From the NCBI GenBank assembly GCA_001788095.1, contig MFZX01000039.1, positions 1 through 32,135 of the forward strand: a DNA stretch of 32,135 nucleotides, in the 5' to 3' direction. This DNA comes from Candidatus Roizmanbacteria bacterium RIFCSPHIGHO2_12_FULL_37_23. Its GTDB lineage: Bacteria > Patescibacteriota > Microgenomatia > UBA1406 > HO2-37-13b. Below, piece after piece: positions 4,774 to 32,135 of this stretch (position 1 is the first letter of the stretch; each line of letters begins with the position of its first letter). The notes under the pieces were generated by a model. That model saw nothing but the letters and a program-made list of their open reading frames with translations, did no database searches and was not told the origin of the DNA. The position numbers were made by a program, and so were the translations under genes.

Positions 4774-5997
4774 ATGGTAGCTTCAAAAAGTACAGGGGGT
4801 TCTTCGGCAATGGAAAGCTCTAATGTTATACACAAACCTATGAAAGTCATATGGCCCGATTTGGCTATAGGACAAATTGGTTTAGTTTTTACAGGAGGTA
4901 CACTTTCTATGGCTCCTGATCCAAAGACTGGCGCTTTACGACCTGCAGTTAGTGGAACAGAAATTGTGGATGCCACTGGACTACGAACTATTAGGGACCA
5001 TTTTTCTGTAGAAACAATGAGGCAGCCATTTAATTTAGACAGTTCAGATTTAACGCCACCCGGTTGGGTTGCCATTAATAATGCTTTGCTGGAAGTATTA
5101 GGCGACTCTGACGGAGCAGCGGTCTTCCACGGAACAGATACATTAGCATATTCTGCTTCTGCAACGGCTATGGCTCTAGCTCATTCTCTTAGTAAACCTG
5201 TTGTATTTACTGGAGCCCAAGTCCCCTTAGGTACAGCTGGTGAAGATGCCAGTGCAAATATAACGCGTTCAGTAAAGCTTTTAGATACGTTACATCGACA
5301 GAATGCGGCAGGTGTATATGTCTATTTTGGTGATTTAGGAATTATAGGAACTCGAGCAACAAAAGTCTCCGATGTTAGATTTCAAGCATTTGAGGATGTA
5401 AGTCGTTTATCAGCCTATTTTTGTACTGCAGAAGAAATTCAACCCGCCCGACCTCCTAGAACGACTATGGATGTAGAAAGATCTAAGGCTGAATGGGCAA
5501 ACGTGGTAGGAGAACCATTAGAAGCTAGATTTGCCCCAAATGGTGTACTCTCAATAGAGTTAAATCCAGGAACAACAGCAGATTCGCTTGTTTACTCTGC
5601 AGAAAATCCAAGTGTTCGCATCCTTATATTAAGATCTTTAGGAGCTGGTAATGTCCCGGCACAAGAAGATAATTCTCAATATAATATCCCCAACGCAATT
5701 GCCGAAATAACTAGCAAATTATCTAAACCAGTTATTATAGTATCCCCTATTGTTGGTGGTAGTATAAGATCTATTTACGAAGGAAATTTAAAAGCACTGA
5801 AAGCTGGAGCAATTAGCGCTGGTTCTATGTCGGCAGAAGCGGCGTGGGTAAAAGCTCTTTTATTATTAGGTCAACCAAAATTATCAGAAGGAGCATTCAA
5901 TACAAGGCCAGAAGAAACAATGGATCTCTTTAGGAAAACATTTGTTTTAGATTTAGCTGGTGAAACCGGCAAACAATTTGATGCATTTAATAACTGA
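4774..5997 (+). CDS. L-asparaginase/glutaminase family (type I-like)
   Basis: FTGGTLSM, HGTDTLAYSA, FTGAQVPLG motifs. Confidence 0.85.
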   Translation: MVASKSTGGSSAMESSNVIHKPMKVIWPDLAIGQIGLVFTGGTLSMAPDPKTGALRPAVSGTEIVDATGLRTIRDHFSVETMRQPFNLDSSDLTPPGWVAINNALLEVLGDSDGAAVFHGTDTLAYSASATAMALAHSLSKPVVFTGAQVPLGTAGEDASANITRSVKLLDTLHRQNAAGVYVYFGDLGIIGTRATKVSDVRFQAFEDVSRLSAYFCTAEEIQPARPPRTTMDVERSKAEWANVVGEPLEARFAPNGVLSIELNPGTTADSLVYSAENPSVRILILRSLGAGNVPAQEDNSQYNIPNAIAEITSKLSKPVIIVSPIVGGSIRSIYEGNLKALKAGAISAGSMSAEAAWVKALLLLGQPKLSEGAFNTRPEETMDLFRKTFVLDLAGETGKQFDAFNN

Positions 5998-10877: not shown

Positions 10878-10955
10878 ATGGTTCTAAACTATAGCATATG
10901 AATGATTATTTTGCAATGTGAAATTAAAAAAATATATTCTTGATATAATTTCCTT

Positions 10956-11297
10956 ATGGAGACAGTCAAACTAGTAGTTTTTGTTCCTGTGACTCATACA
11001 CACGTTGTGAGAGAAGCCATGGGAAAAGCCGGTGCAGGGCAAGTAGGTGATTATAAATACTGTAGTTTTTCAGTGAAAGGGACTGGAAGATATATACCAC
11101 TTGAAACAGCACATCCATATAAAGGTGAAATAGGTAAATTAGAAGAAATAGAAGAAGAGCGTATAGAAACAGTCTGTTATAAAAAAGATTTGGAGAAAAT
11201 AATATCGGCGATAAAAAAAGTTCATCCTTATGAAGAGGTAGCACTTGATGTGTATCCTTTAGTCTTAAATCCCCACGAAACTACATATAAAAAATAA
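10956..11297 (+). CDS. YqfO/NIF3 CutA-like domain protein
   Basis: KLVVFVPVTHTHVVREAMGKAGAGQVGDYKYCSFSVKGTGRY...HPYEEVALDVYPL. Confidence 0.75.
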   Translation: METVKLVVFVPVTHTHVVREAMGKAGAGQVGDYKYCSFSVKGTGRYIPLETAHPYKGEIGKLEEIEEERIETVCYKKDLEKIISAIKKVHPYEEVALDVYPLVLNPHETTYKK

Positions 11298-30183: not shown

Positions 30184-30232
30184 GGTGTGTGAGCCTCATC
30201 ACACATGCGGTGTGTGATGTACTTCACACACC
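30184..30232. promoter_or_regulatory. Tandem CRP-type operator sites
   Basis: TGTGAgcctcaTCACA (30188-30203) and TGTGAtgtactTCACA (30213-30228). Confidence 0.65.
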
Positions 30233-30253: not shown

Positions 30254-30282
30254 TTGAAAATTTTGGATGCGTATGATATACT
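30254..30282 (+). promoter_or_regulatory. Sigma70-like promoter directed toward the GC-rich block
   Basis: TTGAAA - 17 bp - TATACT. Confidence 0.6.
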
Positions 30283-30371
30283 ATAGGGCATATATGAGTG
30301 TTTTTCTGTGCCTTTTGCGTGTGCAGAAAAATACCAAAGCACTTTAAAATATCGCTCGCTACATAAAAAAG

Positions 30372-30426
30372 GAAATACGGACGCATTAGTACTATAGGCT
30401 TATAGTATTTGATGTGTCCGTATTTC
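30372..30426. repeat. Long imperfect hairpin
   Basis: GAAATACGGACGCATTAGTACTATA-ggct-TATAGTATTTGATGTGTCCGTATTTC; departures are G.U wobbles plus one bulge. Confidence 0.75.
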
Positions 30427-30486
30427 TACTAGACCCGCCCAGGGGAATAGCTGGGATAGCGCTTGAAAGGAGCGCGAACGAAGCTC

Positions 30487-31128
30487 ATGAAGCATCAGCT
30501 GTGGCTCAGGCCGGCGACGCTCTTCGTCGCCATCGTCGCTCTCGTGTTGGTCGGCTTCGCCGCCAACACCCACACTGCCTCGGCGCAAGTCGGTGCCGGA
30601 TGCCCGAAGGGGTCCTCCTGGCAGTGGATCGACAACGTGATGTGGTGTGTCCCCAGCGGCGTGGCAGTCCAGCCGCCGGTGGAGGCCTACTACCCGAGGC
30701 CGAACTGTTACGGTCTCACCAACGCCTCGTGTCCGGTCAACGACCTGGACACGAACAAGATCTCGCCCGACAAGTCGCGCCAGATGACGTACGTCGGCAA
30801 GGACACTACGGTCTCAATCTGGGGTGACACCGGTGGTAGGTACCGATCCACGGGCGTGGATGTCGATGGAGTACCCTTCGACGGGTGGATCAAGAGCTCG
30901 TGTCTGACAACCTACGGTGACTGCAGCAAGACCGGGACTCTCTGGTCCGGTAACACCTATCGCTCCCAGCAGCCGGCCTACCCCGGCTACGACTACTCCT
31001 CGGCCGGCATCGGTGGTCACCAGACCACCACGACGCCTTCGTCGGCGGCAACCGGCGTGAGCTGCCCCCCGGGCTCGACCTACGTCAACGGCCGAGGCTG
31101 TATGACGTCGGCCTACTGGGGTCGGTAG
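30487..31128 (+). CDS. Secreted Cys-containing hypothetical protein in a GC-rich block
   Basis: SD GAAAGGAGCG; signal peptide MKHQLWLRPATLFVAIVALVLVGFAANTHTASA; CPKGSSWQWIDNVMWC and CPPGSTYVNGRGC motifs. Confidence 0.75.
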   Translation: MKHQLWLRPATLFVAIVALVLVGFAANTHTASAQVGAGCPKGSSWQWIDNVMWCVPSGVAVQPPVEAYYPRPNCYGLTNASCPVNDLDTNKISPDKSRQMTYVGKDTTVSIWGDTGGRYRSTGVDVDGVPFDGWIKSSCLTTYGDCSKTGTLWSGNTYRSQQPAYPGYDYSSAGIGGHQTTTTPSSAATGVSCPPGSTYVNGRGCMTSAYWGR

Positions 31129-31144
31129 TCGCTAGCGAGCGAGA

Positions 31145-31243
31145 GGGGGCAGGGATTACCTGCGTTTGATAACTGATGTGACGGTTCGCCGCCACCTCTT
31201 TTTATCGGACGTTTGTCGTCTCTGCCCCCATGCTTGTTTTTTT
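31145..31243 (+). terminator. Long structured 3' element followed by a T-tract
   Basis: GGGGGCAG (31145-31152) pairs with CTGCCCCC (31222-31229), stem extends inward with wobbles, apical GTGACGG-TTCG-CCGCCAC, then TTGTTTTTTT. Confidence 0.6.
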
Positions 31244-31473
31244 ATAATAAGAATAAATTCCTATTATGGGGACTTCTCAAACCACATCTTAAAGGTGACG
31301 AAATACACAAGGCATTACATTTTGCAAAAATCTATTTTATTATCGCTACCATTCCGGGTATGTTTATAACATACACGAGTTTTCAAGTATCGCTTCCTAT
31401 GGTATTATTGTGGACAATTACAGGGTATATCGAAGTCTTTGTCGCTGGATACATATTTGCCAAGGTTAAATAA
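31234..31473 (+). pseudogene. Membrane-protein C-terminal fragment (N-terminus missing)
   Basis: Open frame LFFYNKNKFLLWGLLKPHLKGDEIHKALHFAKIYFIIATIPGMFITYTSFQVSLPMVLLWTITGYIEVFVAGYIFAKVK* without a convincing start at the GC/AT junction. Confidence 0.4.
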
Positions 31474-32094: not shown

Positions 32095-32135
32095 TTTCCC
32101 ACTTATTTATACCTATTTGTCCTGTGTGTCCGTTT

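Follow-up and report, generated by a model that had tools for sequence, protein, structure and literature searches.

GC-rich, hairpin-bracketed genes with boxA-like leader motifs recur in an AT-rich Candidatus Roizmanbacteria genome

How does a markedly GC-rich gene come to stand in the AT-rich DNA of a Candidatus Roizmanbacteria genome, and what keeps it that way? The question is raised by the window, by which we mean the whole stretch of 32,135 nucleotides analysed here, part of a 1.09-Mb draft genome in 45 contigs. A sequence-only reading had placed a sharp jump in GC content at 30428-31232, and maximum-likelihood segmentation finds it at 30432-31233. The rest of the window has a GC content of 0.359 and its next-richest 805-bp stretch reaches 0.43, while the tetranucleotide distance of the block is 0.99 against a window mean of 0.33 (sd 0.04). 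The contig ends at base 32135, so the right flank of the block is just 0.9 kb long. An asparaginase-family gene (PF00710) at 4774-5997 lies in a stretch with a slightly raised GC of 0.43. The block comprises:

30432-31233, plus strand: GC-rich body, GC 0.632 (maximum-likelihood segmentation)
30466-30472, plus strand: Shine-Dalgarno-like AAAGGAG, 14 nt before the ATG (sequence)
30487-31128, plus strand: open reading frame for a predicted exported orphan protein of 213 aa with 8 Cys (sequence, composition, fold test)
30487-30585, plus strand: putative signal peptide, MKHQLWLRPATLFVAIVALVLVGFAANTHTASA then Q, cleavage after TASA (inspection only)

GC at the three codon positions of the reading frame is 0.51/0.57/0.84, which, together with the open frame, indicates that 30487-31128 is protein-coding in a GC-rich style; native reading frames of the window have a GC3 of 0.19-0.33, against 0.84 here. 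The frame proposed as a signal-peptide gene is indeed open and its start resembles a signal peptide by inspection, and a Shine-Dalgarno-like sequence is there, as had been claimed, rather far ahead of the ATG. Two cysteine motifs had been described as CPxGS-x(6-8)-C; both are present, but that spacing does not hold, the actual forms being CPKGS-x10-C and CPPGS-x7-C. The eight cysteines lie at residues 39, 54, 74, 82, 139, 146, 193 and 205. A single-sequence AlphaFold model reached a pLDDT of 44 and was set aside. The 3' end is structured, as had been proposed (fold energy of 31126-31245, -55.3 kcal/mol; z = -6.2), and the picture of a single gene that forms a complete unit, alien in composition and with a predicted exported product, is borne out. 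What that picture lacked is a leader hairpin, promoter-like and boxA-like motifs, a truncated gene downstream and the recurrence of this type of block. The leader and the 3' end contain:

30254-30282, plus strand: predicted sigma-70-type promoter TTGAAA-17-TATACT, extended -10, then ATAGGG (score 10.5; AT-rich, host-type DNA)
30298-30334, plus strand: small hairpin GTGTTTTTCTGTGCC...GCAGAAAAATAC in the predicted leader (RNA fold)
30338-30349, plus strand: boxA-like antitermination motif AGCACTTTAAAA, 1 mismatch to the gamma-proteobacterial consensus GYTCTTTAANA
30371-30427, plus strand: leader (5') hairpin, 57 nt, GC 0.37, with G.U pairs (fold, inverted-repeat search)
31137-31239, plus strand: 3' hairpin, GC 0.54, at the right edge of the block, T-rich sequence next (RNA fold)
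31178-31205, plus strand: inner stem GTGACGG-TTCG-CCGCCAC, then CTCTTTTTAT, a putative intrinsic terminator (sequence)

The leader hairpin is the single ungapped inverted repeat of the window that scores at least 14; in a gapped self-complement search it scores 21.2 and the 3' hairpin 18.8. The boxA-like motif lies 55 nt past the -10 element. Rfam gave no match in the window at gathering score. At 30184-30232 stands a tandem palindrome, GGTGTGTGAGCCTCATCACACA/GGTGTGTGATGTACTTCACACACC, with two perfect TGTGA-N6-TCACA sites, and a Crp/Fnr-type regulator gene is present at 2227-2907 of the window. Similar copies of the palindrome are found at L113 12070, L098 6295 and 7812, and L109 5078. It is either an interspersed repeat or an operator; since it recurs in the genome, we treat it as a repeat and have dropped its reading as a CRP site. 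A near-perfect, REP-like palindrome, TTAGCCTCAAATCCCACCTCGGGAGTGGGATTTGAGGCTAA, is also interspersed (L098 5127, L143 263, L145 7248, L151 14813).

The sequence-only reading took the block for a recent acquisition, but an isolated recent event is not supported. We surveyed stretches totalling 964 kb of the same genome by GC segmentation, setting aside rRNA and tRNA islands, and found GC islands on many contigs, among them ~14 GC-rich, hairpin-bracketed protein-coding units with an ORF GC3 of roughly 0.72-0.92. Their common anatomy is a predicted AT-rich sigma-70-type promoter, a boxA-like motif (in most), a long leader hairpin, a Shine-Dalgarno sequence, a GC-rich gene and a long GC-rich 3' hairpin. 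By inspection, nearly all of the products have a signal peptide or membrane segments, and some carry VWA or LVIVD domains. Two convergent units separated by an AT-rich spacer make up L134. Several units are present in a second genome of the same family, G003 (two of them in tandem in L249), and none in about 495 kb sampled from six other family members or in samples of further members of the order and class. Two islands without strong edge hairpins were left out of the class and are candidates for ordinary transfer: L142 6213-7279, with a fatty-acid desaturase gene, and L145 2212-3098, with a PlsY-like gene. A weaker version of the architecture, at L107 18344 (minus strand), has a promoter, boxA and hairpin (16.2) ahead of an AT-rich exported-protein gene and is possibly an AT-rich member.

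Next to four units (L098 ~10227-9902, L131 8301-7952, L134 6556-6228 and L148 ~10929-11253) lies a pair of genes whose products, about 65 and 40 aa long, are tiny membrane proteins. Of 373 genomes of the class, 71 contain the family of the ~65-aa member, in up to 7 copies each; it was matched here to no known family. As the family is common across the class in the absence of GC islands, we do not count the pair as part of the element.

On the right, the block of the window abuts a damaged gene:

31261-31473, plus strand: remnant of a 5'-truncated gene for a ~140-aa membrane protein, residues 72-140 (comparison across the class)

The family has members elsewhere in the class, in about a dozen genomes and mostly at full length. 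Only residues 72-140 are left here and the N-terminal half was found nowhere in the assembly, which indicates that the right junction interrupts a gene. In an empty-site comparison, the truncated gene showed no synteny to msrA in relatives. A broken gene with its other half missing, a contig end so close by and the runs of N inside some units are what one might expect if GC-rich DNA of another organism had been misjoined to the contig, the alternative that the sequence-only reading had itself raised. A simple chimera of this kind, however, would have had to recur ~14 times in independent, AT-flanked units of the same anatomy, with a hairpin at both joins, and the same kind of unit is found in G003; we regard it as extremely improbable.

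The hairpins at the edges of the islands were assessed by RNA folding and by gapped self-complement search, with 60 random windows for comparison. A 5'-edge hairpin is present in 13 of the 16 first-listed islands, with scores of 15.6-31 against a random-window median of about 12 (n = 60), and is absent at L131 8387, L142 and L145; most islands have a long hairpin at the 3' edge. The islands and their flanks, roughly 3.3% of the sequence, hold 27 of the 68 strong hairpins of the 964 kb (p about 1e-22), and only 15 of the strong hairpins outside them are intergenic, several of these being repeats or terminators. Leader hairpins, 55-207 nt long, share the AT richness of the host and 3' hairpins the GC richness of the body; the sequences are unalike between units. 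On the sense strand of the leader hairpins, non-Watson-Crick pairs are more often G.U than A.C (42 vs 19, p = 0.004), which suggests that selection acts on the RNA; the 3' hairpins show no such bias.

Hairpins at both composition edges, host-like in GC on one side and donor-like on the other, could also be single-strand recombination sites, attC-like as in integrons or IS200/RAYT-like, between which promoterless cassettes are swapped. Two RAYT-type Y1 transposase genes (L117 18110-18796 and L106 7577-8299), one of them 0.5 kb from a unit, would fit such mobile cassettes. We nevertheless find this improbable. The units share no hairpin sequence and form no array, inspection revealed no GTTRRRY/RYYYAAC boxes, and no integron integrase was recognised in the 964 kb, where a motif search returned only one XerC-like tyrosine recombinase. 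RAYT genes are found in relatives without units as well, and the G.U bias points to a leader hairpin that acts as RNA.

The part of the leader ahead of the hairpin is also recurrent. A promoter score of at least 10 was obtained for 12 of 16 unit leaders, against 3% of random windows of the genome, and a boxA with at most two mismatches to GYTCTTTAANA for 11 of 14, against 9.9% of control windows (p = 3e-9), both enrichments being higher than they would be against true intergenic DNA because the comparison windows are mostly coding. The consensus in this independent test is the published gamma-proteobacterial one (PMC5725501). The boxA-like motif lies past the promoter, as a rule 12-34 nt ahead of the hairpin; it is weak in L118, L098 and L131 4708. 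The genome's own rRNA leaders contain the same motif, CGCACTTTGACA (23S) and AGCTCGTTGACA (16S). A genome-wide scan for promoter plus boxA returned 16 sites, nine of them with a hairpin of at least 18.9, and all nine are class units; the scan pattern was drawn up after the leaders had been seen, that of L242 in G003 included, so the scan gauges specificity rather than discovery. Across 1.2 Mb of relatives, two promoter and boxA sites have a hairpin of at least 16; one belongs to L242, a GC-rich exported unit of G003, the other to an AT-rich gene.

The coding RNA of the units is folded as well. We compared each gene with shuffles of its own synonymous codons, which keep codons and protein while local composition varies, and the resulting scores can also mirror uneven base composition; 7 of 10 units have z <= -2.5 (the unit of the window, -4.0), and the other three show no excess structure. 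Six native genes of the window range from -1.2 to +1.4, none at or below -2.5, and 26 GC-rich control genes of other organisms average -0.4, with one at or below -2.5; the excess of the units over these controls has p = 1e-4. A second comparison took in 12 GC-rich ORFs, a biased sample partly picked after the first fold test (nine genes of this genome, with z <= -2.5 or previously untested, and two of G003, one with stops in the stretch); sense z is <= -2.0 in all of them and the sense strand folds more strongly than the antisense in 11.

Where did the GC-rich bodies come from? The sequence-only reading proposed acquisition from a high-GC source, which stands in so far as synonymous codon usage is nearest that of actinobacterial loci, but no donor or homologue was found. 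The protein of the block has no match in Pfam, NCBIfam, PHROGs or PDB, and no homologue in phages, plasmids or viral contigs, in 57 relatives or 380 genomes of the same phylum, in 397 genomes of the phylum to which an Acidimicrobiaceae genome belongs or in 399 of the order to which a Rhodococcus genome belongs; pattern searches of GTDB, by peptide and by motif, gave chance matches only. The closer homologue in a distant high-GC taxon that a recent transfer calls for is thus missing from the collections searched, although the donor may be unsampled. In composition and codon usage the bodies point to a style that is high in GC and perhaps actinobacterial. Selection for RNA structure alone would likewise raise GC, and we consider the chances that the bodies first derived from a high-GC donor to be evenly balanced.

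The units could be ordinary horizontal acquisitions, that is, exported-protein genes from high-GC neighbours that came with 3' terminator hairpins of their own and were placed behind host promoters, in which case the boxA-like motif and the coding structure would be incidental. Sharp composition edges, a GC3 of up to 0.92-0.95, the actinobacterial-like codon usage, VWA or LVIVD domains that are widespread elsewhere, the lack of islands in the samples of six other family genomes and a right-flank gene truncated as expected of insertion with deletion all agree with this. It does not account for the hairpin-boxA leader, nor for coding structure beyond that of the 26 control genes, and a donor or homologue of the window protein is missing from every collection tried. 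We think it rather unlikely, if clearly less so than mobile cassettes.

In our view, the units are probably transcription units with an rRNA-like antitermination leader, which give highly folded, probably durable mRNAs for exported proteins. In the window, RNA polymerase would start near 30290, and boxA in the nascent RNA may attract Nus factors to form an antitermination complex, the role it plays in rRNA and lambda nut RNA. For both rRNA and lambda, Nus complexes bound to boxA are known to shield the transcript from pausing at hairpins and from Rho (PMC7819879). The modified polymerase could then pass a GC-rich body otherwise prone to hairpin pausing and to Rho or intrinsic termination, and the 3' hairpin would stop transcription. 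With hairpins at its ends and folding in between, the mRNA would be durable and resemble rRNA, and its product would be a secreted protein, probably disulphide-stabilised. We propose that the need of the RNA to fold is at least part of the reason why GC stays high. More tentatively, and at somewhat less than even chances, a lineage of ultra-small bacteria may keep an 'rRNA-like' class of mRNAs for surface proteins, GC-rich, globally folded, provided with antitermination leaders and closed by hairpins, in which folding is selected against AT bias.

These results turn an oddity of sequence into a genome-wide rule, namely that exported-protein genes of alien composition share one expression architecture, which may have been copied from, or be convergent with, that of rRNA operons. 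If our reading is right, it offers a testable answer to how GC-rich genes are expressed in AT-rich, reduced cells, and a natural case of RNA-structure selection across bacterial coding sequence. The combination of promoter, boxA, hairpin and GC jump could then serve as a search signature for candidate surface or host-interaction proteins of episymbionts.

Several known systems resemble the units in part. A survey of genetic exchange among groundwater Patescibacteria reports genomic islands and single-gene transfers, which are likewise composition anomalies in small CPR genomes, but its main text mentions neither 'hairpin' nor 'cassette' and describes no common leader (PMC12455944). No such units were found in the literature on integron or hairpin cassettes and processive antitermination in Patescibacteria/CPR that lay within our scope, which took in few subscription journals. 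Like integron cassettes, the units are single genes of alien composition with a terminal folded element. The attC site of a cassette carries core sites at the base of its hairpin, R'' (RYYYAAC) and R' (GTTRRRY). The units, in contrast, have no core boxes at the hairpin ends inspected, stand outside arrays and bear hairpins at both ends. Copies of an IS200/IS605 (Y1) element share element-specific subterminal hairpins and come with TnpA, whereas the hairpins differ among units and only one of the two Y1 genes lies near a unit.

Closer likenesses are found among antitermination systems. Transcripts with lambda nut (boxA-boxB) or LoaP-type signals begin like those predicted for the units, with a boxA and then a hairpin. 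Lambda boxB is a 15-nt hairpin bound by an N-type protein. The leader hairpins of the units are far larger, are distinct in every unit and do not match a short boxB. The units resemble most directly the boxA/Nus leaders of rRNA operons and of boxA-controlled protein-coding genes such as suhB (PMC5725501), in that a predicted promoter is followed by boxA in the leader, with a match in the rRNA leaders of the same genome. They differ from these in being ~14 dispersed GC-rich genes for exported proteins, each with a large leader hairpin, preceded by boxA in most, and a long hairpin at the 3' end.
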